Below, in pieces: positions 2,557 through 48,847 of a stretch of 64,000 nucleotides of DNA. Both the position numbers and the translations under genes were made by a program. The DNA is from Actinomycetales bacterium (GTDB taxonomy: Bacteria; Actinomycetota; Actinomycetes; Actinomycetales; Microbacteriaceae), in assembly GCA_015654475.1 (NCBI GenBank), contig JAATGV010000012.1:62001-126000 (forward strand), given 5' to 3'. Under the pieces are notes generated by a model that made no database searches, had not been told where the DNA came from, and saw nothing but the letters and a program-made list of their open reading frames with translations. Positions within the stretch are counted from its first letter, which is position 1, and each line of letters opens with the position of its first letter.

Positions 2557-3967
2557 TCCTTCCGACTGGCGCACCACTACGTCTGAACTCACTGACACCA
2601 CTGCCGTTCGAGTGGCTGTCACGGACACCCCCCGCATTCGGACTCGGGCCCGCAACGTCGAGGCTCGCTTGCTGCTTCTTGCGTTTCTGATCGTCGCGTT
2701 TGCGATCGTGATGGTGGAGCTTGGCGCAACTGGATCTGTGCAGGTGCAGCTTCTGTTTCTCACTGCCCCGATTGCCGCGCTCGTGATCGGATTCCATATT
2801 GTGCTTCGCATCGTGGCCGCCAACGCCGACCCGATTCTTCTGCCGGTCGGCACGCTGATCAATGGCATTAGCATCGCTTTCCTCTACCGGCTCGATATCT
2901 TGGCTGGAAGCAGCGGCTGGGATTCTCTCAGCATGCGTCAGATCGTGTGGACTGCCTTGGCCCTGCTGTGTGCTGCGGTTGTTCTTATTGTGGTGAAGAA
3001 TCATCGGTCCCTTCAGCGTTACACCTACATATTCGGCCTCGTCGCCATTGTGCTGCTTCTGTTGCCGATGCTCCCGTTTGTGGGCGTGGAGGTCAGTGGC
3101 GCTCGTCTGTGGATCGCCATCGGTTCGTTCACGCTGCAGCCGGGCGAGTTCGCGAAGATCGCCCTTGCCATCTTTTTCTCCGGCTACTTGGTCACCCACC
3201 GGGATTCTTTGTCAGTCGTGGGCAAGAAGGTGCTCGGATTCACTTTTCCTCGGCTTCGGGATTCGGGCCCAATTCTCGTGTTCTGGGCCGTGTGCATGCT
3301 GATTCTCGTTGTACAGCGAGATCTGGGTACCTCATTGCTCTATTTCGGGCTCTTCCTTGTCATGATTTATGTGGCAACAGGCCGGTCGAGTTGGATAGTA
3401 ATAGGCTTCGGGCTTTTTGCCGTCGGCGCATATGTGGCTTCTCGAATATTCAGCTATGTGAACGATCGCATCGATGGCTGGCTCAACCCATTTGACCAGA
3501 GCCGCTACGAGGCCGTCTATGGTGGCAGCTATCAGCTTGTGCAGGGCCTGTTCGGCCTGAGCTCGGGTGGCTTGGTCGGCACCGGGCTTGGCCGGGGCAG
3601 CCCTGATCGCACTCCGAAGGTGGAGAACGACTTCATTTTTTCTGGAATCGGCGAAGAACTGGGATTGATAGGCCTGTTCGCGTTGCTGTGCCTGTACTTG
3701 ATTCTGGTGAGCCGCGGACTGAGGATCGGGTTTACGGGTCAGGATGATTTTGGGCGGCTGCTTGCCACGGGGCTCTCGTTCGTGATCGGCCTGCAGTGCT
3801 TCATCGTCATCGGTGGTGTGACTCGTGTGATCCCCTTGACCGGCCTCACCACACCATTACTCGCGGCGGGGGGGTCCAGTCTGTTGGCGAACTGGATCAT
3901 TATCGCTATCCTGTTGCGAATATCCGACTCGGTCCGAACCGAACCACGCGAGGTGGCGAAGCCATGA
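2549..3967 (+). CDS. rodA: RodA/FtsW-family peptidoglycan glycosyltransferase
   Basis: The 472-residue polytopic membrane protein has about ten or more hydrophobic segments and SEDS-family motifs such as LQPGEFAKIA and the C-terminal PLTGLTTPLLAAGGSS block. SEDS proteins polymerise glycan strands from lipid II and work with a partner class B penicillin-binding protein. Here the partner is the next gene, whose start overlaps the rodA stop by four bases. The N-terminal 35 residues are cytoplasmic. It lies in the elongation operon, so RodA rather than FtsW is the likely role. Confidence 0.92.
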   Translation: MSDPSDWRTTTSELTDTTAVRVAVTDTPRIRTRARNVEARLLLLAFLIVAFAIVMVELGATGSVQVQLLFLTAPIAALVIGFHIVLRIVAANADPILLPVGTLINGISIAFLYRLDILAGSSGWDSLSMRQIVWTALALLCAAVVLIVVKNHRSLQRYTYIFGLVAIVLLLLPMLPFVGVEVSGARLWIAIGSFTLQPGEFAKIALAIFFSGYLVTHRDSLSVVGKKVLGFTFPRLRDSGPILVFWAVCMLILVVQRDLGTSLLYFGLFLVMIYVATGRSSWIVIGFGLFAVGAYVASRIFSYVNDRIDGWLNPFDQSRYEAVYGGSYQLVQGLFGLSSGGLVGTGLGRGSPDRTPKVENDFIFSGIGEELGLIGLFALLCLYLILVSRGLRIGFTGQDDFGRLLATGLSFVIGLQCFIVIGGVTRVIPLTGLTTPLLAAGGSSLLANWIIIAILLRISDSVRTEPREVAKP

Positions 3968-5406
3968 ACCGTCCACTGCGACGCGTCACTATCTTCGTCG
4001 TCATTCTCTTTGCCGCCTTGTTCACCTCGACGACGGTACTACAGGTGTTTGCAGCGCCGAGCCTGAACGCGGACTCTCGAAATGTGCGCACCTTGTACGC
4101 AAGCTTCTCGGCCCAACGGGGCGCCATCATTGTCGGGAAGGAGTCGATCGCGAAGTCGACGCCGGTTGACGATGAGTGGCATTATCTCCGCGAATACAGT
4201 TCGCCGCAGATGTATTCGGCATTGACGGGGTATTTCACCCTTAATCAGGGGATGTCCGGTCTTGAGAGTGCGCTCAACGATTACCTCACCGGAACGACGG
4301 ATTCCCAGTTCTTTACCCAGTTCCACAACCTCATCACGGGTGAGAAGGCTCAGGGCGCGTCGGTCACTCTCACTATCGATGCAAAAGTGCAGAAGGCCGC
4401 CTGGGATGCCCTCGGCAATAAGAAGGGCGCGATCGTTGCCCTCGATCCAACTACCGGTGCGATCATCGCCATGGTTTCCAAACCCGGTTATGATCCGAAC
4501 ACTCTCGCCTCTCACGACACGACCGATGTGCTCAGCGCATACAACAAGCTGCTGAACGACTCGAGCAACCCACTTTTCAACCGGGCTATCGGCGGTGACC
4601 TGTACACGCCAGGGTCGACATTCAAGCTGGTTGTGGCCGCCGCCGCCCTCGCGAACGGATACACCGCCGACTCGAAGTTGGCGAACCCAGCCACCCTCAC
4701 GTTGCCTAATTCGACGAGCAGCATCCAGAACTCAACAAAGGGCAAGTGTGGTGGCATTTCGTCGTCAACGGTCACCCTCACGCAGGCTCTTCAGTATTCG
4801 TGCAACATCCCGATGGCCGAGCTGGGGCTAGCCCTCGGCCAGGAGAAGCTTCAAGCTACTGCGAACTCGTTTGGATTCGGCCAGACTGTCGACATTCCCA
4901 TGACATCCACCGCGAGCATTTTCCCGACGGGGATGGATGACGCGCAGCTCATGCTTTCGTCTTTCGGTCAGTACGACGTTCGAGTGTCTCCACTGCAGAT
5001 GGCCATGATTTCGGCATCCATTGCCAACGGCGGGGTTGAGATGACGCCAAACGTGGTTAAACAGATTCGTTCCAGCACGCTCGACTCTTTGCAAGATTTC
5101 ACTCCGACCACCTTCGCCGACCCGATCACTGCGGATGTCTCCAAAACCTTAACCACAATGATGGTTAATAACGTGGCCCACGGCTATGCCTCGGGTGCGA
5201 AGATTGATGGTGTCAGCGTTGCGGGCAAAACTGGTACGGCCGAGACAGGTGTCGATAACAAGTACACCCTGTCGTTTACTGGCTTCGCCCCCGCCGACAA
5301 CCCGAAGGTTGCTGTGGCTGTATTTGTTGAAAATCAGGAATTGGACTCCAACGTGGTTGCTGCTCCGATTGCAAAGAAGGTAATGGAGGCGGTACTTAAC
5401 AAATGA
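3964..5406 (+). CDS. pbpA: Class B penicillin-binding protein PbpA
   Basis: The 480-residue transpeptidase has an N-terminal membrane anchor (about 7-28), a short dimerisation region and a penicillin-binding domain with all three active-site motifs: STFK with nucleophile Ser218, SCN at 279-281, and KTGT starting at Lys422. It cross-links peptidoglycan together with RodA. I chose the ATG at 3964 because it gives the ATGA overlap with rodA and places the anchor at the N-terminus. The same frame is open farther upstream inside rodA but is not likely to be translated there. Confidence 0.94.
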
Positions 5407-32177: not shown

Positions 32178-32250
32178 GGGGCTTTAGCTCATCTGGTAGA
32201 GCGCCTGCTTTGCAAGCAGGAGGTGAGGGGTTCGAGTCCCCTAAGCTCCA
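32178..32250 (+). tRNA. tRNA-Ala (TGC)
   Basis: The 73-base cloverleaf has acceptor stem GGGGCTT/AAGCTCC and T-loop GTTCGAGTC. The anticodon stem CCTGC/GCAGG frames TGC. The 3' CCA is not encoded. Its 3' half is the likely attachment site of the adjoining prophage and remains intact. Confidence 0.97.
32229..32250 (+). repeat. Candidate prophage attL within the tRNA-Ala 3' end
   Basis: The integrase begins 79 bases after this tRNA, and phage genes fill everything to the right. Tyrosine integrases commonly recombine in the T-arm and acceptor stem of a tRNA gene and restore it. The matching attR lies outside the window, so the exact core cannot be defined here. Confidence 0.5.
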
Positions 32251-32279
32251 CAATAAACATAAGGGTTTCCGGCTCTCAT

Positions 32280-32308
32280 GTTGACACGGAATCAAAATCC
32301 GTTGACAC
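32280..32308. repeat. GTTGACAC direct repeats before int
   Basis: GTTGACAC occurs at 32280-32287 and 32301-32308, 21 bases apart, and again at 32509-32516 inside int, followed by GTTGACAG at 32518. The two copies between the putative attL and int fit the position of integrase arm sites. They could also be -35 elements (TTGACA), but spacing to a -10 box is poor. Confidence 0.4.
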
Positions 32309-32328
32309 GAGAGACTAGAATCAGTCTC

Positions 32329-33483
32329 ATGGCGAGCATTCGGGTACGCGAAAAGTCCGACGGAACCACAACCTGGGCGGTTCTCTGGCGCGATCCCAAC
32401 CTTGGCAAACAAACCAGTCTCTCCTACGACAACCCTGGCCAAGCGGAGACCCTGAAACGATTGCTCGACGCCAACTATCAGAAGCTTTCCCGTGTCGAAG
32501 GATTGCTTGTTGACACTGTTGACAGAGGGCCGCTGTTCGGCGAAGTGTTCGAAGGGTACGTGTCACATCTTGTCCGGCCCAACGTCGACACCGTTACTAA
32601 GTATCGGAACATGTACGCCAAACATATTGAGGCCCAGTTTGGGATGATCCCGGTCAAACTCATCGACGACGACCGCATCACGGATTGGATCATCGCGCTC
32701 AAGAAGAGTGGGCTTACCCCTAAGACGATTAGCAACGTGTCGGCCCCATTCAAAGCGGCACTCGATCGTGCTGTGCAACGTGGTCACGTGGGGGTGAACC
32801 CGTTCAATTCGGTGATTATGCCCGTTGATGATCGGGTCGATACAGTCGGGGACACTCTCGAAAGAGAAGAGTATTCTCTCCTGTTCGGGTTGCTCAAAAA
32901 GATTGGGCAGGAACATTACGAGACATTCGTCGACACGCTGATGGAGACCGGGGCACGATTTGGTGAGATCGCCGCCCTCGGCCCGAAGGACGTGGTGCTG
33001 CCGACTAAGGGGCCCGCCACTATTTCCGTCAACAAAGCATGGAAAGGCAACGGAACCACCCGTAGGATCGGGCCGCCAAAGAACCGACAGTCACGCAGGA
33101 ACGTGACAATCAGACGCAGCCTGGCAAAGGAGATCCTTGCACTCGACGCCACTGACGGCCTGCTGTTTACGACTAAAACTGGGCTTCCAATCAAGGGGGG
33201 AACATTCCGCAATCGCGTGTGGCAGCCCCTTCTGGAGACCGCACACAAGGAGGGCTTCGAAAAGAGTCCTCGAGTACACGACCTGCGGCACACCCACGTT
33301 GCATGGTTGATCGAGGCAGGTGTCGACCCGTACACGATCTCTCGCCGCCTCGGACACTCCTCGATCAAGACCACATTCGATATTTACGGTGACCTGCTCA
33401 ACAACGCAGAGATCCGTACCAGCGAAGTCCTCGACTCCACCTTTGACGGACTGCACACGGGCCTTTTGTCGAAGCGGCCATGA
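32329..33483 (+). CDS. int: Phage tyrosine-type site-specific integrase
   Basis: The 384-residue integrase has an N-terminal arm-binding domain, a SAM-like core-binding domain (about 65-155) and a catalytic domain with Arg210, Lys251 (probable), HDLR with His317/Arg320, LGH His343 and nucleophile Tyr353. It integrates the phage at the adjoining tRNA-Ala. I prefer the ATG at 32329 (MASIRVREK), the usual family N-terminus. TAGAAT lies seven bases before it and suggests a leaderless mRNA. An upstream ATG at 32278 in frame is less likely. Confidence 0.93.
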   Translation: MASIRVREKSDGTTTWAVLWRDPNLGKQTSLSYDNPGQAETLKRLLDANYQKLSRVEGLLVDTVDRGPLFGEVFEGYVSHLVRPNVDTVTKYRNMYAKHIEAQFGMIPVKLIDDDRITDWIIALKKSGLTPKTISNVSAPFKAALDRAVQRGHVGVNPFNSVIMPVDDRVDTVGDTLEREEYSLLFGLLKKIGQEHYETFVDTLMETGARFGEIAALGPKDVVLPTKGPATISVNKAWKGNGTTRRIGPPKNRQSRRNVTIRRSLAKEILALDATDGLLFTTKTGLPIKGGTFRNRVWQPLLETAHKEGFEKSPRVHDLRHTHVAWLIEAGVDPYTISRRLGHSSIKTTFDIYGDLLNNAEIRTSEVLDSTFDGLHTGLLSKRP

Positions 33484-33915: not shown

Positions 33916-33968
33916 GCTTCTCTGGTGGAGGTCTATACGACGACGTGGTGAGCCCGTAGGCTGTGGGC

Positions 33969-34586
33969 ATGTGCGCGTCATATGGCCTCGACGGCGGCCC
34001 GGATCGATACGACTTCGAGCCGTTCTCGGAGATGCTGGACTACACGCCGATCCGACACTGGCAGGACGTCGGCGGGAAGGCGAACACGACCCGCGTGCGG
34101 AAACGCGACGGGCACATCAATTTGAACCCGATCATCCGCAACGTCGATGGCCACCTGCGGGTTGATCTGGCGTGGTGGTGGTTTTGGGTCGGGGGCAAGC
34201 CTGCGGAGTTCACCGCGTTCAACTCTCGCGACGACAAACTGCTCAGCTCGCCCGTCTGGAAGGGTGCCTATAAGAGCCGTCGGGCACTCCTCCCAGCGTC
34301 ATGGTACGTGGAGAAAGGGAAGCGTTTCGAGCTGCCAGGCGGGGAGCCGTTCACGCTCGGAGCGATCTGGAATGCGGGCTCTGAGGAAGTTCCGGTCAGC
34401 TATTCGATGGTCACCAGGGATGCTCTCGCGACCCCGGCAACCGTGTGGGATCGGATGCCGCTGATCATCCCTGAGCATCTCCGCGAGGCATGGCTCGACC
34501 CCAGCATTGACGGTGATGCTGCGCTGCTCGACCAGGTGCTTGCCGCTAGCGAGGCTGATACGCGGGAGCTTGTGATCGCGGGCTGA
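33969..34586 (+). CDS. SRAP-domain (YedK/HMCES-like) protein, divergent active site
   Basis: The 205-residue protein begins MCASYGL, placing Cys2 as the mature N-terminal residue used by SRAP proteins to form a covalent link with abasic sites in single-stranded DNA. Other family motifs are FNSRDDKL with Asn85, RRALLPASWYVEKGK with the expected Glu115, and DRMPLIIPEHLREAWLDP. The histidine that normally precedes DRMP is replaced by Trp160. TAGGCT six bases before the ATG suggests a leaderless mRNA. In a phage, the protein may protect abasic sites during replication or evade host defence; that is inference. Confidence 0.82.
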   Translation: MCASYGLDGGPDRYDFEPFSEMLDYTPIRHWQDVGGKANTTRVRKRDGHINLNPIIRNVDGHLRVDLAWWWFWVGGKPAEFTAFNSRDDKLLSSPVWKGAYKSRRALLPASWYVEKGKRFELPGGEPFTLGAIWNAGSEEVPVSYSMVTRDALATPATVWDRMPLIIPEHLREAWLDPSIDGDAALLDQVLAASEADTRELVIAG

Positions 34587-34682
34587 CGCCCCCAAAACAC
34601 GAAAACACCCCCGCACCTGCCATAAGACAGATACGGGGTAGTGTGATCGTGAGCGCAATGGAGAGTGGGCGACATGAGCAGT

Positions 34683-34707
34683 AAGACCTTCCGTAGAGAG
34701 AGGTCTT
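34683..34707. promoter_or_regulatory. Inverted repeat before the DUF5677-like gene
   Basis: AAGACCT (34683-34689) and AGGTCTT (34701-34707) form a perfect seven-base inverted repeat with an 11-base loop, ending six bases before the ATG at 34714. It covers the likely ribosome binding site, so it could be an operator or an RNA hairpin that limits translation. Confidence 0.45.
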
Positions 34708-34713
34708 CCTAAC

Positions 34714-35463
34714 ATGAGCGCGAAGAAAATGAGAGAGCGACGAAGAGCTCTGCGAGAGCGTCCTGAAGTTGAGCAAAATTGTGACTTTATCCTCGGCGCG
34801 GCGAAGCGCATTCTTGCAGTCGATATACAGATCTTTCCGGTCGATCGTGTGACACAGAGCATCCTTGGCTGGTTGCGCGCAATCTTCGATCAGAGCCGAG
34901 CGATCGCAACACTCACAAAGGTTGGGTTAGCTGCAGAAACATCACCAAATCGACGCACTGTCTACGAGACCGTAGTCCGGCTTCAGTGGCTGCACAGCAT
35001 GCAGCAAGAGGATCGAGCTGAGGCAATCGATGCAATGCTTGAAAACGAACGAAATTTGACCGAAAAATCATACCGTCACATGAGCAACATGGGAATCGAA
35101 CTTGAGCCTGACCTTAGCCATATGCAAGCAGTCATTCTCAATGTAAATAGCAAGAAGCTGAGAGAACAGGCGCGCAATTTCGTAGCCACTGCGACAAGTG
35201 TGGGCTGGCAAAGCGGCGGGCTCTACAAGGCGTGGCATGCGGAAACACAATTCGCACATGCAACTGTCACGATGGCAGTGTCATATGCTCCCGTCAAGGG
35301 CGGTACGGGGTTCCCGCCCGTGCATGATGAGAATCTCAGAATGCACTTGTACATGTTGTGGCTGGCGTTCTTTCTTGCTTACCAGCTTCTTGTTCAAGAG
35401 GGCATTCCCGAAGATGATGCCGAGGCCATAGTGGATGCATTTCTCGGACAAAACGCCGAATAA
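34714..35463 (+). CDS. DUF5677-like protein of unknown function
   Basis: The 249-residue, largely helical protein has a basic N-terminus (KKMRERRRALRERPE). A central conserved-looking block, RRTVYETVVRLQWLHSM, and a C-terminal region with KAWHAETQFAHATV and LYMLWLAFFLAYQLL resemble DUF5677, whose function is not established. It has no signal peptide; the last hydrophobic stretch could be a buried helix. It is an accessory gene on the opposite strand to the structural genes. The family call is tentative. Confidence 0.6.
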   Translation: MSAKKMRERRRALRERPEVEQNCDFILGAAKRILAVDIQIFPVDRVTQSILGWLRAIFDQSRAIATLTKVGLAAETSPNRRTVYETVVRLQWLHSMQQEDRAEAIDAMLENERNLTEKSYRHMSNMGIELEPDLSHMQAVILNVNSKKLREQARNFVATATSVGWQSGGLYKAWHAETQFAHATVTMAVSYAPVKGGTGFPPVHDENLRMHLYMLWLAFFLAYQLLVQEGIPEDDAEAIVDAFLGQNAE

Positions 35464-35621
35464 CCCCCGCCTACCCGGTGAAGGGTTGACAGGGGTGTGT
35501 GGTGAGGCTTCGGAGGCTTTGGAAAGTACGAGTAAGCTAGATATCGCGGGTGAGGGCTGGGAAGAACAAGGCTCACGTTTACGTTGATACTATTGCGAGT
35601 GCGGCAGAAGGAGGCGGGTGC

Positions 35622-36227
35622 GTGAACATTTCCATGTTTGAGAAGGATTCTCTGAGCGCGTTCGACGTTGCGGCCGCATTCGTGCGTCTATCGCAGCTAG
35701 AAGAGCAGCCGATGTCCCACATGCAGCTCCAGAAGCTTGTTTTTCTTGCCCAGAGCAAATATGCACATGACACTGGCTCTGGCATCTACCGTGAGGCAAC
35801 CCAAGCATGGGAACATGGCCCAGCGGTCAAGCCTTTGTTTGGCGTATACAAGGAGATGAAGAAAAGCCCAATTTCGAGAATCTTGTTGCCGATGTACCAT
35901 CCCGTCGTTGATGTGCCGAGCTACGTGCAGGCAGAGGCTATCGCCGAAGTATGGGGGCTGTTCAGCCCGCTCACGGCGGCGGAACTCCGACGACTGACTC
36001 ATCAGATTGGACCGTGGCCCACTCACTACGTTCCAGGCGGACGTGATATTGAGTTGCCATTGGGCGAAATTGCGGATGCGTGGGATGAGTTTCTGGGTGC
36101 AGTCCAAGATGAGGGCCCCGCGAGTGGTATGGACGTGGGGGCTGTCGGCGAGAGTTATCGCAGTTACACGGAAGATGACGTTGCGGACGCACGCGCATAC
36201 CTTGCTGCCCGCCAACGCGTCGCGTAG
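35622..36227 (+). CDS. Panacea-domain (DUF4065/SocA-like) protein, probable antitoxin
   Basis: The 201-residue protein contains a Panacea domain at about 12-150: FDVAAAFVRL, MSHMQLQKLVFLAQSKYAHD, a WEHGPAVKPLF motif and LTAAELRRLTHQIGPW. Panacea domains are known as antitoxin modules (PanA) that neutralise many unrelated toxins encoded next to them. The GTG at 35622 has AAGGAGG seven bases upstream, which decides the start over an open frame beginning at 35550. The next gene starts 18 bases later and encodes a PIN-like protein, so the two look like a toxin-antitoxin pair. Confidence 0.82.
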   Translation: MNISMFEKDSLSAFDVAAAFVRLSQLEEQPMSHMQLQKLVFLAQSKYAHDTGSGIYREATQAWEHGPAVKPLFGVYKEMKKSPISRILLPMYHPVVDVPSYVQAEAIAEVWGLFSPLTAAELRRLTHQIGPWPTHYVPGGRDIELPLGEIADAWDEFLGAVQDEGPASGMDVGAVGESYRSYTEDDVADARAYLAARQRVA

Positions 36228-36245
36228 ACAGCCGGACAATAGGCA

Positions 36246-36884
36246 ATGCCAGATGAGGGAGATGCTTGCGTCGTCGTGCCCGACGTTAACATCTTCCTGA
36301 ATATTGCCAGACACGTTGGGCGACCTTGGGACATAGGAGAATTTGGGGAAGTCGCCGCTCCCCTTCGTAAGCCGAGCACTCAGAAGTCAGGGATTTTTGA
36401 CTCCGTGCGATGTATTGACTGGTGCATGACCAAGCTTTCTCCCCACTCACTACGAATCGCAATTTCAACTGCTGACCACATTCTGAACACCGTGTTCTAC
36501 AAGGCGACACAGCCGCTCCACAGCGTCGAACACAATGGACAAGGTCTCGGATGGTCAAAAGCCGATGCGGAAAAGATAATCGACTTCATCCAGGACATCG
36601 TGAAGTTCACCTCTGGAGCGAATCTAGGGTTTGTGCCCCCACGTGGCAACCCACCACTAGACCACGAAGACGGCTCCGTTCTGGGAGCGGCAAGAGCGGC
36701 TATTCAAGCCACATCTGTTGCCAATGGATATATCGTCACCTGTGACAACGACTTCATCTCAGCCGCACCTAAGTCCTTAGACGTGAGTGTAGTCGACCCA
36801 TTTCAATGGGTTCACGAATGCCGAAAAGCCGAAAGAATCCGCCTCATACAGTCCATGCCTGCACCAACAACTCCTGCGACGTAA
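36246..36884 (+). CDS. PIN-like domain protein, probable toxin partner of the Panacea protein
   Basis: The 212-residue protein has PIN-type acidic positions: Asp13 in VVPDVNIFLN, the Asp139/Glu141/Asp142 cluster in DHEDGSVLGAA, and Asp167/Asp169 in VTCDNDFI. PIN domains are Mg-dependent ribonucleases, often toxins that cut mRNA, tRNA or rRNA. A long central insertion (about 25-120) makes it larger than VapC. The gene pair lies among accessory genes near attL. The ATG at 36246 has no strong ribosome binding site, and a GTG at 36279 is an alternative start. Confidence 0.72.
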   Translation: MPDEGDACVVVPDVNIFLNIARHVGRPWDIGEFGEVAAPLRKPSTQKSGIFDSVRCIDWCMTKLSPHSLRIAISTADHILNTVFYKATQPLHSVEHNGQGLGWSKADAEKIIDFIQDIVKFTSGANLGFVPPRGNPPLDHEDGSVLGAARAAIQATSVANGYIVTCDNDFISAAPKSLDVSVVDPFQWVHECRKAERIRLIQSMPAPTTPAT

Positions 36885-38975: not shown

Positions 38976-39668
38976 TTACGCGACGGGCCAGGAGCCGGAG
39001 AGAACTACGGTCGTTATTGTTGCGGTGTGGGTGTTTCGAATTGCAACCGTTCCTGGGGAGGGCGAAACCCATGCTTGTATCGGGTAGAGGGCTCCGCCGT
39101 ACGCTCCCAGCGCTTGTTGATATGCGGGTCGATAGTCGGACGGGATTGTGACTACCGGGTCGACGGAAAGGCCAGAAGCCACCGATGCGGATGTGGCCAA
39201 GAGCTCGAAATATACGATTCCTGACCGTACTGTGTACTGGGCCGTCATGTTCGTAGTTCCCAGGCCGGTGACTGTGAGTGATTGCCAGGCTCCAAGGTGG
39301 TCGAAGACCTTCCAGGTTGCCCCATTCCACCGGTATAGCCCGTTCACGGAGGCCGTGGTGTGGCCGGAAACGCGCATCATCTGACCCACACGCAAATTCG
39401 AGGCCGGGTAGTCAGCCAGCCAGGTGCGGTCAATCGTCCCGGTTACCCACCAAGTCGTGCCATCCCATTCGTAGGTGCCTTTATTTGAGTTTGTGTCTGC
39501 GGTGACCCTGGCCTGCTGACCGACGAAATCTCCGGAGGTGAGTAGCAGTGCAGCGAGAGTGGCAAAGGCGGGAAGTTCGTAGCGGGTTTGGAGGGATTTG
39601 GCGAATTGGTCGAAGCTGTCGGGGACGTTGGCTTGTGCCTCGGTGGCGGGGATAACAAAGGCGCTCAT
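38976..39668 (-). CDS. Minor tail/fibre-type protein
   Basis: The 230-residue protein shows phage fibre features: an N-terminal helix, then short beta-rich units such as GTYEWDGTTWWVTG and GLYRWNGATWKVFD, and a C-terminal beta-rich region. Such proteins usually lie at the tail tip and may contact the host. GGAGCACC precedes the ATG. It is not assignable to a named family by eye. Confidence 0.65.
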   Translation of the reverse strand: MSAFVIPATEAQANVPDSFDQFAKSLQTRYELPAFATLAALLLTSGDFVGQQARVTADTNSNKGTYEWDGTTWWVTGTIDRTWLADYPASNLRVGQMMRVSGHTTASVNGLYRWNGATWKVFDHLGAWQSLTVTGLGTTNMTAQYTVRSGIVYFELLATSASVASGLSVDPVVTIPSDYRPAYQQALGAYGGALYPIQAWVSPSPGTVAIRNTHTATITTVVLSGSWPVA

Positions 39669-39938: not shown

Positions 39939-41039
39939 CTAGCTTTGGTATGCCCATCGACGGAGCTCGAGTGTTTCCAGGTAGGTTGTGACGTCGAGTG
40001 TGGTTGAGACGATCTGCATTTTTCCTGCCTCTACCGGGCCCCCGTCCCACCCGTAGACACCGAAGTAGGTGGTGTCGGCGGGTTCGAGGGAAGGGTCGCC
40101 GAAGATCTGAAAGGTGATGCCTCGTTCGTTGTCGATGGTGCGTTCGAGCTCGCGGGCGGCGATCGCCTTCGCTTCGATGAGGGTCCCGGTCAGATTGTCG
40201 ATGGTGAGGGGGATGTATCCGATCTTTGCAGGGTGGCGGGCCGAGCCGGTGTCGGTCATGGCCAGGATCTCTTTAGTCCACCCTTGTGACCCGTCGGTAG
40301 CGGTGGCAGAGACGGAGACGGAGTTGTAGGTGGTGGCGTTTTCTACTTGTACTGATCCGGACACGATCATTCCGCCGTCGCCAGAGCGGAGTGTGCCGAC
40401 GGCTGGCGGGTCGACGTATTTGTCTTCCATGTGAAACACACCCGAGCCGTCGATCCAGGTGCGGATGGAGCCGTCTGAGGAGAGTTGGTTGATCGCAGCC
40501 CAGTAGGTTCCGGACCAGGATTGTTGGGAGAGGAGTGTGCCGGTGTCTGTTGACGTGTCGGAGATGATGAGGTCGGGGATGCAGGTTTGGGCGAGTTGTT
40601 TGATTGCGTCACGCCTGGTCATGGTGGCGGCCTGGACGAGCATGGGCACGATGGTGGTGGTGTTCAGTTTTTGGGAGAGGTCGACGGCGGCGAAGCTGAT
40701 GGTTGCTTCACCAAACGTGAGACTGGGTGTGTACAGTCTGCCGGTGAGCACGGGGATGAGCTCTTCATCGCGGGATGACCAGACGACACCGGATTTGATC
40801 ACGATCGGCAGCCATGGCGCCCCAACCTTTTTGAAGAACGCGGCCAGGTCGGCGGTGTTTTGTGATCCAACGGAGAGCACTCCGGTGAAGGTTCGAAATG
40901 GTTGCGTGGCTTGAGCGTTCAGTGTTCCGGAGACTAGTGGCAGGAGGATGGGTGTGTCGTCGACGGTGATTGACGCAACCGTTTTGCGTTGCCCTCCCCG
41001 CCACAGGGAGTCTTTGAATCGGTCGGTGACGGAAAACAT
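39939..41039 (-). CDS. Tail hub-type protein
   Basis: The 366-residue protein follows the distal tail gene with a one-base TAATG overlap. It begins MFSVTDRFKDSLWRGGQRK and contains regions common in siphovirus hub proteins (FAAVDLSQKLNTTTIVPM, RAAIKQLAQ-like helix, LETLELRRWAYQS end). It is probably the gp27-like ring at the tail tip, similar to DUF5047-type proteins. Assignment rests on position and general pattern. Confidence 0.65.
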   Translation of the reverse strand: MFSVTDRFKDSLWRGGQRKTVASITVDDTPILLPLVSGTLNAQATQPFRTFTGVLSVGSQNTADLAAFFKKVGAPWLPIVIKSGVVWSSRDEELIPVLTGRLYTPSLTFGEATISFAAVDLSQKLNTTTIVPMLVQAATMTRRDAIKQLAQTCIPDLIISDTSTDTGTLLSQQSWSGTYWAAINQLSSDGSIRTWIDGSGVFHMEDKYVDPPAVGTLRSGDGGMIVSGSVQVENATTYNSVSVSATATDGSQGWTKEILAMTDTGSARHPAKIGYIPLTIDNLTGTLIEAKAIAARELERTIDNERGITFQIFGDPSLEPADTTYFGVYGWDGGPVEAGKMQIVSTTLDVTTYLETLELRRWAYQS

Positions 41040-42985
41040 TATGCCCTCCGGTTATCGACGAGCAGGTCATAGTAGGTGGCGTAGATTCGGGCGATGTCCC
41101 CATATGTCCAGCCTTGTGCGATGAGGTCACCGAACGTCCACGAGGACGTGACCACGTCGTTCGGGGCTGTTGTTTCCGTCAGTGGGAGCGTCCACGTGCG
41201 TTGGTAAAACCCTGGGGCCTCGACCAACGGATCTTCACTGATTTGCCCGACCCGGTAATACGTCTCTTTGAGCCGCATTTTGTATCCGGGCGGGAACCGA
41301 AACAGGATCGGCGACTGATCTGCGAGACACGTATCCAATGCTGTTGCTTCGTCTGCGGACTCCGTCAACACTTTGATCGTGCGCTCGTGGCCAGCACGGG
41401 CGGAAACTTGGCGGGTGAACACTGTCAAGTTGGAGCCGAGAGGGCGAGCAGACGAGTCAATCGCGTCCGAGGTGCGGCCCCCAATCTCTTGCAATGCGGC
41501 GACTCCGGGCGTCATCGACAGTGGGAATGACAGACCAGGGTTGGAAGTGTTGATGATCCAGGCCCGTTCAGACTCGATCGTGCTCACAGCCGACTCGTCG
41601 AAATCTGATGTGACGACCGTTGGTGGGAGGTATGTTGTCACGGGTCCGGCTTCAGCGTTCTTCTGTAATAGCTTTCGAACGATTCGCGCCTCTCTGTCGA
41701 CCGCGTAAATGGCGCCGGTGGAATCGACGGCTACCGCCCACATTGGCCCAACTGTGGACGACGTCAGCAGCAGCACTCCTGTGGGAGAGTACTTCTTGAC
41801 GGTGCCGCTACTCTCCGACACAACGTAAACGTTTCCTGCGGAGTCGGTGCCGATTCCGGAGGAATGGCCGGGAGTCCATGAGGCGATCAGGGTACCTGTG
41901 GAGGAGTATTTGCGAACCCGGTCACCGTAATTTTCGAGCACATAGATGTTCCCTGTGAGGTCAGCAGCGATGGCCCCAGCCGTTGTGACGCTCCATGAGG
42001 TGATCGCAGCACCCGTAGACGAGAACTTGCGAACAGTGCTGCCGTCGTTATCAAGCAGGTAGATGTTTCCGGTGGCATCAATAGCGATATCACCAGAGAT
42101 TGGGTATGATCCTGTGCTCCATGAGGTGATCGTTGCGCCTGTCGACGAGAACTTTCGGACGAGGTGATTGAACGTATCTGCAACATAGACGTTGCCTGCC
42201 GAGTCAATAGCGATACCCGCAGCGCCCGAATCAGTGGCGCATACCCAGGAGGTAATCGCGCCACCTGAAGATGAGAACTTTCGGACCCGATTGTTCATCT
42301 CATCGGTTACATACACGTTGCCTGCCGAATCAACAGCGACACTTGAAGGCTCCCCGGTTGTTCCCCACGAGGCGGTCTGCACCACGCTGGCAAGCGAGAC
42401 CAAGCGCACCGATGCGACGACCCCCGCAAACGGTACAGAGATGTCACCTGGCCCTGTCACGATCAGCCGGTTTGCCGTGACCTGCGCGGAGAACGTTCCC
42501 ACCGCGGAAATGACTGACGTGCTTGTCCCAGCAACGGTGGTGACGTCCGTCGATGCGACACTGCCGACGACTGCGCCGGTCGCGCTCAGAAACTCGAGCC
42601 GGACATAAGATGGGTCCTCGATAGTGATCCGACCGATACCTAACGCAGAGCGAGAAATGGACGCGCCAGGCACGGACGAGGCCGCTTTACTCGTAGATGC
42701 AGCCCAGTTTGATCCAGACCACGCCGACACATCCGGCCACGCCTCAGACCACAACGTCACCTCATCAACCGGTGTGGAGATCGTCCCAGCAGCCCGATAC
42801 GTGCAGGGCACGCTATAGGGTGGCTCGAAGTCCTCGCAGGCGGCCTGCCGGAAACCCAATGTTGGTTGAGTCCGAACCGGTGCCCCGTCACGGGTCACGG
42901 AGAGGGCCGAGAAATAAGACCCCTCGCCGGCGTCAAGCTGGACACGAACCGCAGGCGGCGTGTTCTGAAACTGTGTAACGTCCAC
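41039..42985 (-). CDS. Distal tail protein with inserted NHL beta-propeller
   Basis: The 648-residue protein sits between tape measure and hub, the place of the distal tail protein. Residues about 205-442 hold six repeats of the NHL type: each has a D(S/A)xGN(V/I)Y(V/L) strand pair followed by VRK(F/Y)SSTG and TSW. This predicts a six-blade beta-propeller. The flanking parts (1-200 and 450-648) look like an ordinary phage tail protein, including PILFRFPPGYKMRLKETYYRVG. The propeller may bind a host surface glycan or protein; that is inference. Confidence 0.8.
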   Translation of the reverse strand: MDVTQFQNTPPAVRVQLDAGEGSYFSALSVTRDGAPVRTQPTLGFRQAACEDFEPPYSVPCTYRAAGTISTPVDEVTLWSEAWPDVSAWSGSNWAASTSKAASSVPGASISRSALGIGRITIEDPSYVRLEFLSATGAVVGSVASTDVTTVAGTSTSVISAVGTFSAQVTANRLIVTGPGDISVPFAGVVASVRLVSLASVVQTASWGTTGEPSSVAVDSAGNVYVTDEMNNRVRKFSSSGGAITSWVCATDSGAAGIAIDSAGNVYVADTFNHLVRKFSSTGATITSWSTGSYPISGDIAIDATGNIYLLDNDGSTVRKFSSTGAAITSWSVTTAGAIAADLTGNIYVLENYGDRVRKYSSTGTLIASWTPGHSSGIGTDSAGNVYVVSESSGTVKKYSPTGVLLLTSSTVGPMWAVAVDSTGAIYAVDREARIVRKLLQKNAEAGPVTTYLPPTVVTSDFDESAVSTIESERAWIINTSNPGLSFPLSMTPGVAALQEIGGRTSDAIDSSARPLGSNLTVFTRQVSARAGHERTIKVLTESADEATALDTCLADQSPILFRFPPGYKMRLKETYYRVGQISEDPLVEAPGFYQRTWTLPLTETTAPNDVVTSSWTFGDLIAQGWTYGDIARIYATYYDLLVDNRRA

Positions 42986-42993
42986 GGGTTCTC

Positions 42994-45900
42994 CTACCTC
43001 ACCTGGACGAGCCCGAGAGAGCCCTCGTCGTCCAACTTCACTTCAACCACTGTTTTGATGCGCTCGTCGAGTGTGACGCCGTCAGCTGACTCGTTTCGTA
43101 CGGTGATGACCGGCCTCAAAATGATCTGCGGCACGGACGTTGACGTCTTGGCCTGCCCGATGATTCCACCGGCTGCCATGACCGGCTTATGCCGTCCGAG
43201 GGCGACCTCCAGATCGTCCATGACTCGGTTCGCTTCTACCCGGTACATGGGGTCTAGAGGGACGAAGCCTTCTGCGAACTTCTCTGCGAAAATGCTGGTG
43301 CGAGTCTCGATCCCACCCGGAGTGTAGGGGTAGATGCCGGGGGAAATGCCACCCGCCGCTTTCTTCCCTTTCGAAGACGACGAGGATTTCTTTTTCGACG
43401 AGGACTTGCTCTTAGAAGACTTGCCTTTCGACGAGGACACGGCGGCAGAGATTGCCTTGACGACCCTGTCCCCGACGTTATCGATCTTGTCTTGCGCGGT
43501 CTTCGCATCCGCCTTCGCCTGCGCGTATGCATCCTCTGCATCATCTTTCGATTCTTTGAGCACGGCGACAGTATTCTGTTGCGCCGTGATCTGTGCCGCG
43601 TACGCACTGTCCGCGACCGTCTTGCCTGCAGAAGTCGCCGAGTTCGATACCGAAGTCCAGTCCGTATTCGCTTGAGTCACCTCAGTGGCGCTCATCTTCA
43701 GGAACTCTTCCGCCAACGGAATACCGTCGTCGATCCCCGCATCAGTGACCATCTGAATCAGCTCGGAGGAGAACCCAGCCTTCTTCATTTTCGCCAACAA
43801 GTCCGCAAACTTCTTGGTCTGCGACTTCTTCGACGACAGCGACGAGAGGATCGACTTCTTTGTCGGTGTCGTGGCGGTTGTCGAATCTGGGGTGTATGAC
43901 CAGTTCCCGTCTTTACCCTTCGACCATGACGCGGACGTCGTCGTTTCGCCGAACAGTGACTTCAGGTCGAACGTGCCCTTGATTGACGACGCAATCGACG
44001 AAGCCATTGACGCGCTTTCCTGCTGAAGACTCGTCAGAGTGTCCTTCGCAGAGTCATAGGCATCAGTCGCCTTGTCTAGCGCCGTCTTGTTCTTGTCGAT
44101 CGCCGCGTTCGCTTTGTCGAGCTTCCCCGTCCATTTCAGGAGATCTTTTTCCGCCTCGGTTCCTGCCTTCGACAGATTCTTCGCCGTACCCTTGTCATAA
44201 TTCCCCGACCGGGCCATAGAGAACACTTGGTCCACCCTGGACATCCCGTTCCCATTCGCGAAGTCATCCGCGATCTCACCACGTTTGGTGTCGCGAGTGT
44301 ACGTGAACGCATCATCCTTGATCGCGTCACGGTTCGCCTTAGCATCACTCAACGCAGACTCAGCATCACTGATCGCATCATCACGACGGGACTTCTGCTT
44401 ATCCGTCTTCTTCGGCAAAGCCTTCGCCTTCGCCAGTTGCGCACTCGCTCGCTCCACCGCCGCATTCGCCTTATACAAACCACCCTCAGCAAACACGTCC
44501 ATGCCAAACATTTTCGCGACCCTGGCAAGGATCTCTTTCGACCGCGACCGCTTCGACTCAGCCAAAGGAATATACGCCTCGCCGCCAGTTTCCGGCTCAG
44601 CCCAAACCCTCCAGTCCCCCGCCTTCGCGATCTGTGCTGTGTGCTCCTCGACACCGTCCGCGAAGTATTGGGCACCCAGAATCCCGCCATTGGCCTGCTT
44701 GGAGACAGACTGTGTACTGACCTTGACGCCGACGCCAAACGTCTTCCCAGATATTCTGTTGAGAGAGTCCTCGAGGCTGAGTACCTTCTCGGTTGCGGTG
44801 ACGACCCCGTCGGCGGTGACGGTAATGTTTTTCGATTTGAGGCCGGCGACCTGTTGTTTAAGGTAAGCGATGGAGTCAGCAGATAAGCCTGCTTTGTCGG
44901 CGAGGGCGGCGGCCTCATCCGTGCCCACGCCCATTGCTTCGGCGGCCTTGATGAAGGCGTCTCGGCCGGAAGTGAGTGTTTTCTCGACCGCTGCACCTCC
45001 TTTCCCTGCCGCGAGTTGGGCGGCCGCCCAATCTCCCGTCTTGTCGGCGATGCTATCGAGAGCCTCCTGATTTGCTCGGCCCTTTGCCGTGTGGATATCG
45101 AGGGTTTTGCCGTTCTTTGTGAGAGCGGCTGACGCGTCATCGATCGCAGTCTGGTATTCACGGGACGCGGAGCGTTCATCCAGGAACGTGGACCCAAGTC
45201 CATCAAGGGCGTCTTTGAGATCATCAACCTTCTGCTGGGCGTCCTCAGCCGAGTCCGCTGTATCAGCTATGGAGGCTGTGGCCGTGTCAGCGCCCGCAGC
45301 GGCGGTCTCTGACGCGGCACCAACCTCACCCAGCGCAATTTTGAGAAGTGTTTGATCGTCAGCGGTGAGCTTCGCCTCGGTCGCTTGCTGAGTGAGAGCT
45401 TCCTTGAACTCTGGCATCTGGTTGAGGAGTGCTGTTTGCTCGTCCCCGCTCAGTTGATATTCCTCGGTCAGGTCCTTGAATCTTTTGGTGGCAGAGGGTA
45501 GGTCTGTCGCGGCGAGGGAAGAAAGCCCCTTCCCGTATTGGGTAAGGACATCGAGCGTGGCCTTCTGGGAAACGCTCTGATTCAGATATCCGAGAAACCC
45601 TTCGGATGCAGCCTTTGCGGAATCTAGTGCGTCCCTTACCCCGGCAGCGTCGGTTTCAGCATCGACCGCCCACTGCAATGGGTGGCTGTTGGCAATCGTT
45701 GCGAGAGCGACGCTTGCACTGGTTGACGTCGTCGCAATGTTTTCGAGCTCTGTGTCAGTCTTGCGCATTGAGTCAACGAGCGTGTCAAATATTCCGACGA
45801 CCAGTGCTACTCCAGCGACTACGCCAGCGGTTTTCCCCATAACCGCCAGAACTTTGCCGGCTTTCTGTGATTGGGTGCTCATTGTGGTGATTGCGTCGCG

Positions 45901-47331
45901 GTAAGCCTTGATCTTCGGCACGGCGATTAGGAACGTGCCGCCGGCGAGCGCAGTCGCCGCGATAAGCGCTGCGGTTGCCGTCACAGAAGTTTGAATAGGG
46001 GCAGGCAAATCACCGACCTCAGAGACAAGGTTTGTTACTGCCTGGACCATGAACCGCAAAACATCGTTGGTGCCGGACCCCGCCTTGATGAAAGTGGTGT
46101 CGAAGGCGGCACCAAGCTTGGTGACATCGCCTTCCAGGGAGTCCATTTTGTTTTTCGCCTGCTCGGCTGCGAAACCACTGTCGTCAACGGCAGCGGTCCA
46201 ATCCGTGATCCCCTGTGCTCCTTCAGAGTAGAGAATCTGCGCTGACTTGAGCCCGTAAGAACCGAATATTTGTGCCATTGCGGCGTCACGCGTGGCCTGG
46301 TCAACGCCTTGGAATGCGGTCTGGAGTTGACCAGCGAGTGCCGACATGCCGACGAAGTTTCCTTGGGCGTCATACAGGCTGATGTTGTACTCGTCCATCA
46401 ACTTTGATGCTTGGCTTGATGGTGCCTGGAGCGCTAAAAGCATCGACTTAAGCTGTGTGCCCGACTCGGCACCGATGGAGCCGTTCTGCGCGAACGCTGC
46501 CAGGGTGCCGATGGTTTCTTCGAGGGAAGCTCCGAGCGTTGAGGCTGTGAGGCCACCATTGCTTAGCGCCTCGCCGAGGTCCCCCACTGACCCCAACGCT
46601 TTGTCCGCACCTGCGGCCATCAAATCCGCGAGGTGCGGAATGTCCTTACCCGAAAGTTTGAACTGGGTCATCGCGATCGTCGCGTACGATGTCGCGTCAC
46701 CGACATCGATCTGACCGGCTGCGGCAAGGTTCAGGGACCCGGCGAGGGCACCGCCGAGCGTGTCCGACACGGAAATACCGGCCTTGGTTAGCTCGATCTC
46801 CGCATCAGCAACATCGTTGGCGGAGAGACCAATATTGGTGCCCATGCTGAGTGCCGCGTCACTCACCTTCGCCATGTCGATGCTTGTTGCCTGCGACAGC
46901 GACTTGTATTGCGCCATCTTTCCGGAGAAGGACGTGTACTTTGCGATTGCAACACCGAGACCGGCGGCGATCGCGGCACCAGTGGCAACCATGGCGGTAC
47001 CAACTTTGGTTTGCGCAGCCTCCAAATCTTTGAGCTCTTCGGCGTGCTTGCGTGCCTGTTGGGCGGCGGTGAGCTGCTTGTTGCCAGCGTCTTGAGTTTT
47101 CGACCCCAGCTCGCTGGTCTTTTTCGACGCCTTGTCAGTCTCACTCGCCAACGTTTTGGTTCCTGCGGCACCCTTAGAAGTACCTGCGTCGATGGCCGCA
47201 CCTGCGGTTTTCCCTGCCGCCCCAGCCTGCTCGAAACTGGCTTTGACTTTACTGATGTCTTGGCCGAGTTCTTTCGCCCCGACGGCTTCAAAAACGGCTC
47301 GGAGACGACCTACTTCAAGAGAGTCAGACAC
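42994..47331 (-). CDS. Tail tape measure protein
   Basis: The 1445-residue protein is long, Ala/Ser/Lys/Asp-rich and helical. It has a conserved tape-measure core at about 120-400 (KYTSFSGKMAQYKSLSQAT, GLSANDVADAEIELTKAGIS), hydrophobic helices around 455-510, and coiled-coil repeats to the end. It sets tail length and may take part in DNA entry. The GTG start overlaps the stop of the frameshifted chaperone by eight bases. Confidence 0.92.
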   Translation of the reverse strand: MSDSLEVGRLRAVFEAVGAKELGQDISKVKASFEQAGAAGKTAGAAIDAGTSKGAAGTKTLASETDKASKKTSELGSKTQDAGNKQLTAAQQARKHAEELKDLEAAQTKVGTAMVATGAAIAAGLGVAIAKYTSFSGKMAQYKSLSQATSIDMAKVSDAALSMGTNIGLSANDVADAEIELTKAGISVSDTLGGALAGSLNLAAAGQIDVGDATSYATIAMTQFKLSGKDIPHLADLMAAGADKALGSVGDLGEALSNGGLTASTLGASLEETIGTLAAFAQNGSIGAESGTQLKSMLLALQAPSSQASKLMDEYNISLYDAQGNFVGMSALAGQLQTAFQGVDQATRDAAMAQIFGSYGLKSAQILYSEGAQGITDWTAAVDDSGFAAEQAKNKMDSLEGDVTKLGAAFDTTFIKAGSGTNDVLRFMVQAVTNLVSEVGDLPAPIQTSVTATAALIAATALAGGTFLIAVPKIKAYRDAITTMSTQSQKAGKVLAVMGKTAGVVAGVALVVGIFDTLVDSMRKTDTELENIATTSTSASVALATIANSHPLQWAVDAETDAAGVRDALDSAKAASEGFLGYLNQSVSQKATLDVLTQYGKGLSSLAATDLPSATKRFKDLTEEYQLSGDEQTALLNQMPEFKEALTQQATEAKLTADDQTLLKIALGEVGAASETAAAGADTATASIADTADSAEDAQQKVDDLKDALDGLGSTFLDERSASREYQTAIDDASAALTKNGKTLDIHTAKGRANQEALDSIADKTGDWAAAQLAAGKGGAAVEKTLTSGRDAFIKAAEAMGVGTDEAAALADKAGLSADSIAYLKQQVAGLKSKNITVTADGVVTATEKVLSLEDSLNRISGKTFGVGVKVSTQSVSKQANGGILGAQYFADGVEEHTAQIAKAGDWRVWAEPETGGEAYIPLAESKRSRSKEILARVAKMFGMDVFAEGGLYKANAAVERASAQLAKAKALPKKTDKQKSRRDDAISDAESALSDAKANRDAIKDDAFTYTRDTKRGEIADDFANGNGMSRVDQVFSMARSGNYDKGTAKNLSKAGTEAEKDLLKWTGKLDKANAAIDKNKTALDKATDAYDSAKDTLTSLQQESASMASSIASSIKGTFDLKSLFGETTTSASWSKGKDGNWSYTPDSTTATTPTKKSILSSLSSKKSQTKKFADLLAKMKKAGFSSELIQMVTDAGIDDGIPLAEEFLKMSATEVTQANTDWTSVSNSATSAGKTVADSAYAAQITAQQNTVAVLKESKDDAEDAYAQAKADAKTAQDKIDNVGDRVVKAISAAVSSSKGKSSKSKSSSKKKSSSSSKGKKAAGGISPGIYPYTPGGIETRTSIFAEKFAEGFVPLDPMYRVEANRVMDDLEVALGRHKPVMAAGGIIGQAKTSTSVPQIILRPVITVRNESADGVTLDERIKTVVEVKLDDEGSLGLVQVR

Positions 47332-48103: not shown

Positions 48104-48847
48104 TTATGCGCCGCGCGTATAGGCCAGGGCGGTGGAGACACCAGCACTGTTGGTGACGGTGAGCGGGGCAGAACCGGCCGTGCCGGCTGGCATGATCACG
48201 ACAATGTAGTTGTCGTTGACGATGACGTAACTGGTTGCAGCGACGGCACCGAACTTCACTGCCGTGGTGCCGGTGAAACGGGAACCGTAGATTGCGACCT
48301 GTGCACCAACGGCAGCACCCGAGGGTGATGCACCTGACAGCAACGGCACCTGTGCGCCGGCAAGCGGGTTGGTGATGGGTGCTGCGGTGCCGTCACCGGT
48401 GAGAGTGAACTGTGCCACCTCAGTTGTGTTGTCGTCGGTGTTCTGTCGTGACGGGTGCGACACCAAAGCTTTGGCCTGGTAGGCCTCGTCGGCGCCGAGC
48501 CCGTCATAGAACCGAACCCCGATCTTGTTCGCTTCACCCTTCAAATCGGCCTTGTTCTTCAAGGCCATGTACCACGGGTAGAACTGGTTCGTTCCTGGCA
48601 CGCGACGCTTGGTCACGTTGAAGGTGAGGACAAAGGACTCACCAGTTTTGGTTTGACCAGGGTTGCCTTTGTACGAATAGTTTGAAATTTCGCGGAGCAC
48701 GTCAGTGAATGCGGGAGTGAGCCCGGAGACCTCAGGGACGTTCAACCAGACGGGTGCTGCGTCGGTGCCGGTGTTGATGTCGGTGAGGAGCTCATAGGAG
48801 TTCGCAACATCACCGGGCGCCGGCGAAAGCGTGTCAAATGTAGTCAT
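48104..48847 (-). CDS. Major tail protein with C-terminal IPT/TIG domain
   Basis: The 247-residue protein has a tail-tube domain (about 1-150, with RREISNYSYKGN-like and GESFVLTFNVTKRRVPGTNQF segments). A C-terminal immunoglobulin-like domain of the IPT/TIG kind (about 165-245) follows: PLLSGASPSGAAVGAQVAIYG, VKFGAVAAT and APLTVTNSAGVST. Ig-like decorations on tail tubes project outward and may bind surfaces weakly. It is followed by a strong hairpin, as expected for a highly expressed gene. Confidence 0.82.
   Translation of the reverse strand: MTTFDTLSPAPGDVANSYELLTDINTGTDAAPVWLNVPEVSGLTPAFTDVLREISNYSYKGNPGQTKTGESFVLTFNVTKRRVPGTNQFYPWYMALKNKADLKGEANKIGVRFYDGLGADEAYQAKALVSHPSRQNTDDNTTEVAQFTLTGDGTAAPITNPLAGAQVPLLSGASPSGAAVGAQVAIYGSRFTGTTAVKFGAVAATSYVIVNDNYIVVIMPAGTAGSAPLTVTNSAGVSTALAYTRGA

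Follow-up and report, generated by a model that had tools for sequence, protein, structure and literature searches.

A six-bladed NHL propeller as part of a probable exchangeable cassette in a tail protein of an actinobacterial prophage

A continuous stretch of 64,000 nucleotides of actinobacterial DNA, referred to here as the window, contains a prophage tail gene whose product carries a six-bladed NHL propeller. The gene probably encodes the protein at the distal tail protein (Dit) position of a temperate phage with the gene set of a long-tailed phage, and this protein would present an exchangeable surface-recognition cassette in the F-G hairpin of an FN3-like domain. The fold of the propeller, the site of the insertion, the presence and absence of the propeller in relatives and the incongruence between propeller and flanking sequences were all computed. 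The features of the window on which the analysis is based are listed in Table 1.

Table 1. Coordinates of the tail gene, its domains and neighboring prophage genes within the window.
Feature	Coordinates	Strand	Basis or remark
Propeller-bearing tail gene	41039-42985	minus	648 aa, GTG start
FN3-like domain, N-terminal part to F strand of hairpin, residues 1-75	42761..42985	minus	core profile
Jelly-roll-like beta domain, first half of inserted cassette, residues 76-203	42377..42760	minus	similarity to relatives' inserts
Six-bladed NHL propeller, residues 204-443	41657..42376	minus	Pfam, PHROG, AlphaFold2, VIA-align
Return linker to FN3 G strand, residues 444-463	41597..41656	minus	between propeller model and core profile resumption
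FN3 G strand, tail-tube-like domain and C-terminal helices, residues 464-648 plus stop	41039..41596	minus	core profile
Tape measure protein, directly upstream of propeller gene	42994..47331	minus	Pfam PhageMin_Tail 1.1e-42; PHROG tape measure 1.1e-70
Hub-like tail protein, directly downstream of propeller gene	39939..41039	minus	phrog_1887 tail protein 3.5e-16
Prophage integrase beside tRNA-Ala	32278..33483	plus	Pfam Phage_integrase 1.1e-15

An earlier note on this DNA had placed six NHL repeats at 41660-42373, which corresponds exactly to residues 205-442, and the repeats were confirmed there by Pfam (NHL, residues 204-443, 3.8e-20, 71.3 bits compared with a curated cut-off of 20). The propeller is also matched by Pfam SBBP (4.2e-12), and its residues 208-430 by PHROG 8401, a 'beta-propeller repeat protein' (3.7e-21). 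The best sequence relatives with solved structures were the designed Pizza propellers (5e-54) and the sensor domain of PknD (1rwi, 9.3e-25). The match to a propeller is far beyond chance. The structure prediction that the note had proposed as a check, performed with AlphaFold2 on an alignment of five rows, returned a complete six-bladed ring: the predicted model has 24 strands, six times four, between residues 200 and 442, with pLDDT values mostly of 85-95 and three of 24 ten-residue blocks at 71-77. According to VIA-align the best match is the NHL domain of TRIM3 (Z 33.8, rmsd 1.9 Å, 244 residues, window residues 200-443); the scores for other solved propellers were Z 30.0 for Pizza6 (3ww9) and Z 29.6 for PknD, and Foldseek, too, groups the predicted ring with solved six-bladed NHL domains. 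The order of strands in the sequence would be compatible with ring closure in the last blade through an outer strand from the N-terminal side. The blades have 27-61% of their residues in common.

Two further properties of the propeller were considered and rejected as arguments. An Arg/Lys pair in each blade might hint at a basic patch for polyanions, but the net charge of the propeller is -2 and polyanion binding is therefore not claimed. The GC content of the propeller (55.8%, compared with 62.7, 62.0 and 58.7% in other parts of the gene and 58.3% in the window) leaves a gap too small to argue for a foreign origin by composition.

Homologs of the protein were searched at several levels of relationship. 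With the whole protein as query, any match was obtained in 13 of 199 relatives' genomes, its own included, and matches to the flanks beyond its own genome were found only in G029 and G052. A profile of the C flank matched six of 398 family genomes and seven of 396 order genomes, and a nine-row profile matched 10 of 394 class genomes and 16 of 398 family genomes; the own genome is included in each count, and the samples overlap. One of the seven order-genome matches (G638, 9.2e-4) was discarded, since it is a short frame beside a helicase-like gene and likely a chance match. The annotated minor tail proteins of the phages Samy and Whytu are members of the same protein family. Scans of viral contigs with the C flank of the window protein, with its three-row alignment, with the G052 protein and with gp9 of Whytu detected no relatives, tblastn with the hub protein of the window gave no match in phage records, and 50,697 phage records contained no place with 80% coverage of the protein from the window, from L099 or from L110. 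Among 49 homolog rows, which represent 36 distinct ones by coordinates and lengths and include one that matches only the FN3 part (L079), the propeller occurs only in the two rows (window and L069) that represent the window protein itself, with the qualification that several rows are truncated at the end of their locus and a propeller might have escaped notice there. Scanning IMG/VR with the alignment of the propeller yielded at least 206 relatives, of which 80 were taken on. Among the matches listed, 116 of 133 loci (L099-L231, some contigs twice) hold a propeller ORF, and propeller and core are combined in one ORF on three viral contigs, L099, L110 and L136. These three proteins are 35, 29 and 31% identical to the window protein over almost the whole length and have the same domain order, i.e., FN3 part, jelly-roll-like domain, propeller, FN3 strand and core. 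The proteins of G052 and L195 carry the jelly-roll-like insert without a propeller.

The fold of the core was predicted from the homolog L062 with a nine-row alignment (pLDDT 71.6, pTM 0.64). Residues 1-98 of this model correspond to an FN3 domain (best VIA Z 10.0, 2.1 Å, 86 residues; tenth FN3 of fibronectin, Z 9.4), the VIA list being filled by FN3 domains so that other folds could be absent from it. Residues 100-241, which follow in second place, show a weak likeness to tail-tube-like proteins in the predicted model. A Foldseek search of the PDB found no match at E <= 0.001 for this part; the matches that missed this threshold included the Dit of SPP1 (2x8k, E 2.6e-2) and a gene-transfer-agent chain (6tba_50, E 1.2e-2). 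A baseplate chain of phage Mu (9ki1_0) was aligned to the tube-like part with a VIA Z of 9.5 but at 5.2 Å over 114 residues. In BFVD, 34 viral models match at E <= 0.001, several of which are named minor tail proteins. According to the model, the uninterrupted core of the relatives would thus consist of an FN3-like domain and a weakly tail-tube-like domain.

A core profile of 265 positions was established from ten cores, six of them trimmed by hand, and with the window, G052 and Whytu proteins excluded. Profile matching was used for the N flank of the window protein; a MAFFT alignment of 13 whole proteins misplaced that flank. Profile positions 42-84 were found at residues 35-75 of the window protein and positions 92-263 at residues 468-644 (73.6 bits). 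Since the profile stops at 84 and resumes at 92, the core is interrupted between about residues 75 and 464. Residues 1-80 reached 14.9 bits against the core profile; among 1000 shuffles, 778 scored at all and the highest of them reached 6.8. The N part scored 131 against the same part of the G052 protein, where the shuffle maximum was 53 and none of 500 shuffles was as high. On the G052 protein itself the profile aligned with positions 5-106 on the N side, poorly past 84, and with positions 85-263 from residue 258; it resumes at 85 in L099, at 84 in L110 and at 92 in L136. Relative to its homologs, the window protein has an insert of about 390 residues, from about residue 76 to about residue 463, which comprises the jelly-roll-like domain followed by the propeller. 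By hand count, profile positions 84/85 are residues 86/87 of L062 and lie next to the turn that connects strand 71-79 to strand 85-94. Read from the model of this homolog, the insertion site would be the F-G hairpin of the N-terminal FN3-like domain. The FN3 reading of the window protein rests on L062, because most residues of the window model outside about 204-443 have a pLDDT under 50. An uninterrupted tail protein split by the propeller, as the earlier note had described it, agrees with the uninterrupted core of the relatives and has to be amended in that the jelly-roll-like domain is inserted as well and the split lies in the predicted FN3 F-G hairpin.

The designation 'jelly-roll-like' is a reading of the sequence, and most of that domain has a pLDDT under 50; a Pfam search gave no family name for residues 76-203. 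The domain is 40% identical to the insert of L099 and 39% to that of L136, and in neither case did any of 300 shuffles score as high. Weaker similarities exist to L110 (33%, 1 of 300 shuffles), L195 (28%, 9 of 300) and G052 (27%, 1 of 300, and 3 of 500 in a second run). Other additions to the core were found as well. Pfam detected CBM_4_9 before or within the FN3 part in the Galbitalea homolog (1.8e-7) and in L072 (1.2e-5), and in L074 the region of the F-G hairpin holds about 200 inserted residues that look different. Genome G922 encodes two homologs with different extra domains: L076 has a polysaccharide deacetylase-like domain beside the core (1.1e-5) and L078 a CBM_4_9 below the cut-off. 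Both N-termini are cut by contig ends.

Terminase, portal, capsid and major tail genes are all located within the window. An exact 27-bp repeat of the tRNA-Ala end was detected at 32227-32253 and at window coordinate 73268 (L098), which is beyond the window on the same contig, and these repeats likely represent att sites, which would delimit a prophage of about 41 kb. The hub-like protein resembles a protein annotated as baseplate hub in Streptomyces phage Samy (1.9e-7), and the tape measure protein matches an ORF in six of 12 and six of nine homolog loci in two sets. The gene order tape measure, propeller/core gene, hub-like gene is present in the window, G052, L110, L195 and L136; PHROG confirmed the upstream tape measure in G052, L110, L136 and L195 and the downstream phrog_1887 hub-like gene in G052, L110 and L195. 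An exception is L099, where a gene for a GDSL lipase/acylhydrolase (3306-5318, 8.2e-14) separates the tape measure gene from the tail gene with the propeller and no hub homolog was found in the locus. The earlier designation as a distal tail protein holds with regard to position, with the tape measure gene directly before and the hub-like gene directly after. It does not hold with regard to the canonical domain order of Dits, since an N-terminal belt followed by a C-terminal galectin-like domain is not what the L062 model displays.

Several other genes of the prophage region were noted. The major tail protein (48104-48847, PHROG major tail 5.2e-19) has a TIG/Ig-like domain at its C-terminus (Pfam 4e-9), and this domain is another decoration on the surface of the same tail. 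The lysogeny side carries cargo at 33963-36884 (an SRAP peptidase, a DUF5677-like gene and a SocA/Panacea antitoxin-like gene), and the latter is followed by an ORF without Pfam match with which it may form a toxin-antitoxin pair. The tape measure proteins of L136 (1622-5356) and L195 (2141-5956) contain an M23 peptidase domain.

The comparison of relatives with and without the insert, which the earlier note had proposed, revealed both forms at the same site. The propeller-bearing protein of L136 and the propeller-free protein of L195 are 60% identical in the N flank and 58% in the C flank, and their neighbors are likewise related, with identities of 65% for the tape measure, 60% for the upstream gene and 35% for the hub-like gene. 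As relatives with and without the propeller exist at one site, the propeller is not shared by all members and does not belong to the core fold. This agrees with the idea of a swapped-in module, apart from the fact that the inserted unit includes the jelly-roll-like domain besides the propeller. Judged by sequence identity, the window's own propeller-free relatives are distant: the flanks are 45% (N) and 25% (C) identical to those of G052 and 39 and 30% to those of L195, and the C part is 31% identical to that of the Galbitalea homolog.

A midpoint-rooted tree of the joined flanks was calculated for 12 proteins including six other family members. It pairs L136 with L195 (UFBoot 100) and L110 with G052 (UFBoot 99); a topology constrained to unite the four propeller proteins was rejected (p-AU 1.2e-4). 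The C flank alone gave the same groups (UFBoot 100 and 98, respectively) and a p-AU of 1.4e-6 for the forced grouping. The presence of the propeller is incongruent with the descent of the flanks, and since the grouping of the propeller proteins was rejected, more than one gain, loss or exchange of the propeller has taken place. In L136, the jelly-roll-like domain resembles that of L099 (40%, local score 246) and of the window protein (39%, 214) more than that of the sister protein L195 (31%, 60), so that both inserted domains probably moved together in L136/L195. The jelly-roll-like domain of L110 follows the flanks, its highest match being that of G052 (38%, score 151). The sequences thus seem to give the idea of a joint cassette its basis in one pair, L136/L195, with no such signal in the pair L110/G052.

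The blades themselves were compared within and between the four propellers. Their mean identity within a protein is 44% for the window, 57% for L099, 42% for L110 and 27% for L136; between proteins it is 33.8% for blades at the same position and 34.8% for blades at different positions. Over all four proteins, the identity within exceeds that between proteins by 8.0 points (0 of 5000 permutations), an excess to which L136 is the exception. A positional signal across the four propellers was not found (same minus different -1.0; 4367 of 5000 permutations as high). The propellers of the window and L099 are 43.9% identical in register and 39.4-41.7% in other rotations, and the blade tree contains few well-supported groups. 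This pattern fits independent amplification, homogenization within genes, or acquisition of different propellers. Changes in blade number were noted elsewhere: a protein of the viral contig L188 (5842-7116) has about nine nearly identical NHL-type blades, apparently a recent amplification, and the tail genes of the phages NrS-2 and NrS-3 (L055/L056) contain six and three SBBP stretches, respectively.

An ancient propeller lineage, inherited vertically and lost repeatedly without any exchange, would explain the occurrence in four divergent proteins and the best alignment of the window and L099 propellers in register, and the monophyly tested in the tree would fail even with losses alone. Such a history is nevertheless rather improbable, because the proximity of the L136 jelly-roll-like domain to L099 and the window rather than to L195 needs an exchange or an old duplication, and because blade similarity lacks the positional signal. 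The latter observation also speaks against the propeller being a structural spacer or a docking platform for another phage protein, e.g., a receptor-binding protein, as blades without correspondence between proteins are unexpected for a conserved internal partner. Moreover, L195 and G052 have no propeller yet keep their tape measure and hub-like neighbors. We consider this role unlikely as well, although propellers are common protein-binding platforms and the tail side includes another gene, at 38976-39668, to which no family name was assigned. For phage p2, an insertion of the Dit ('arm' and 'hand') is described to hold the receptor-binding proteins (PMC7291167).

That the propeller might be an enzyme, a tail depolymerase or lyase which trims surface polysaccharide instead of binding it, appears least probable of all. 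NHL is the best Pfam match and NHL domains are the best structural matches, whereas lactonase-like propellers score lower (Z 25-27). Histidine-metal lyases with a propeller fold are known to need more than two histidines, and by histidine count the window propeller has only two. The missing positional correspondence of the blades in four propellers argues against a shared active site. Pfam SGL (SMP-30/gluconolactonase), on the other hand, passes its cut-off with 35 vs 26.3 bits, its best stretch covering only 36 residues, and does so in L099, L110 and L136 as well; Vgb lyase remains below its cut-off (25 vs 50 bits). Six-bladed propellers have also been presented as predicted depolymerase domains of Klebsiella phages, some of them accompanied by jelly rolls or belonging to baseplate assemblies (PMC11448410).

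The favored reading, a protein at the Dit position with an exchangeable recognition cassette, has its closest counterpart in the evolved Dits described for siphophages of Gram-positive bacteria (PMC7291167, PMC10688798). Their genes likewise lie directly after the tape measure gene, they carry binding-type domains in a loop of a peripheral beta domain, and related phages occur with and without the insert; an extra domain in a loop and relatives lacking it at the same site were also found for the window protein. The two differ in that the insert of evolved Dits is a CBM and that of the window protein a jelly-roll-like domain with an NHL propeller for which binding is presumed, and in that the host domain is a C-terminal galectin-like domain in the former and would be an N-terminal FN3-like domain in the latter. 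Because the domain order of L062 is reversed, the window protein may work like an evolved Dit and is not filed as a canonical one. CBMs inserted in Dits are reported to bind the host, and cloning of an evolved Dit into skunaviruses is reported to have restored their infectivity fully on exopolysaccharide-bearing hosts; adsorption improved slightly on these hosts and was reduced on those without exopolysaccharide (PMC7291167, PMC10688798).

Further comparisons concern single traits. In the actinophage Corndog, the distal tail protein gp58 is described to have an extra domain between the two usual ones; this insert is Rossmann-like, unlike that of the window protein, and its cryo-EM structure is known (PMC13252515, preprint). 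A sugar-binding role has been proposed for the insertion domain that a gene transfer agent has in its distal tail protein (PMC7296036), and baseplate domains of phage Douge are reported to bind mycobacterial glycans (PMC13033339). The receptor-binding protein Gp45 of Staphylococcus phage phi11 contains a beta-propeller that is proposed to hold GlcNAc and thus to be a glycan-binding part of a siphophage tail tip; it is five-bladed, however, and belongs to a trimeric receptor-binding protein instead of a Dit (PMC4901313). The 'tail fiber' proteins NrS2_61/NrS3_61 of the Nitratiruptor phages are encoded by a siphophage tail gene with six NHL-type repeats in NrS-2, three of which are absent in NrS-3, according to PMC9723563. 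Our Pfam analysis gave six SBBP stretches for NrS-2 and three for NrS-3. The gene lies two places after the tape measure; these phages infect a different host phylum and are likened to the window phage by repeats and gene position. The six-bladed NHL propellers closest by sequence among solved structures, PknD (1rwi) and Pizza (3ww9), are a kinase sensor and designed proteins and, unlike the window protein, do not derive from phages.

The earlier view that a propeller is unusual in a tail-tip protein has to be toned down, as the precedents in Nitratiruptor, Klebsiella and Staphylococcus phages lower the surprise. A published propeller in a Dit or a report on FN3 FG loops in phage tails was not found in the open-access literature searched. 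As far as these searches go, the host site, the domain combination and the pairs with and without the insert are new, and propellers in phage tails were already known.

By analogy with these systems, ring assembly, exposure and ligand binding may be pictured as follows. The tail-tube-like C-terminal domain would build a ring at the tail end, and the FN3 domain would hold the cassette outside the ring, off its F-G hairpin; a hexameric ring like that of known siphophages would give each tail six copies of the cassette. During adsorption the propeller may bind a glycan or protein of the host cell surface and could thereby, like the insertions of evolved Dits, assist dedicated receptor-binding proteins. 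Host recognition by the propeller, as the earlier note had suggested, is a reasonable assumption on these grounds.

A broader hypothesis is offered tentatively, and we regard it as possible rather than likely. The F-G hairpin of the FN3-like domain could serve the tail tips of actinophages as a docking site that tolerates recombination and would then be the natural equivalent of the FN3 monobody loop varied by engineers. Phages would exchange the cassette of jelly roll and NHL propeller there, and each lineage would then remake its propeller by within-gene copying of blades, diversifying the binding ring faster than the rest of the tail. The favored reading would extend the concept of the evolved Dit to an FN3 host domain and an NHL propeller in phages of an actinobacterial family. 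With L136 and L195, a natural pair with and without the propeller is available, in which the propeller is an optional part of a tail-tip protein, and the missing blade-to-blade correspondence provides a case where the evolution of propellers could be tied to host surfaces.
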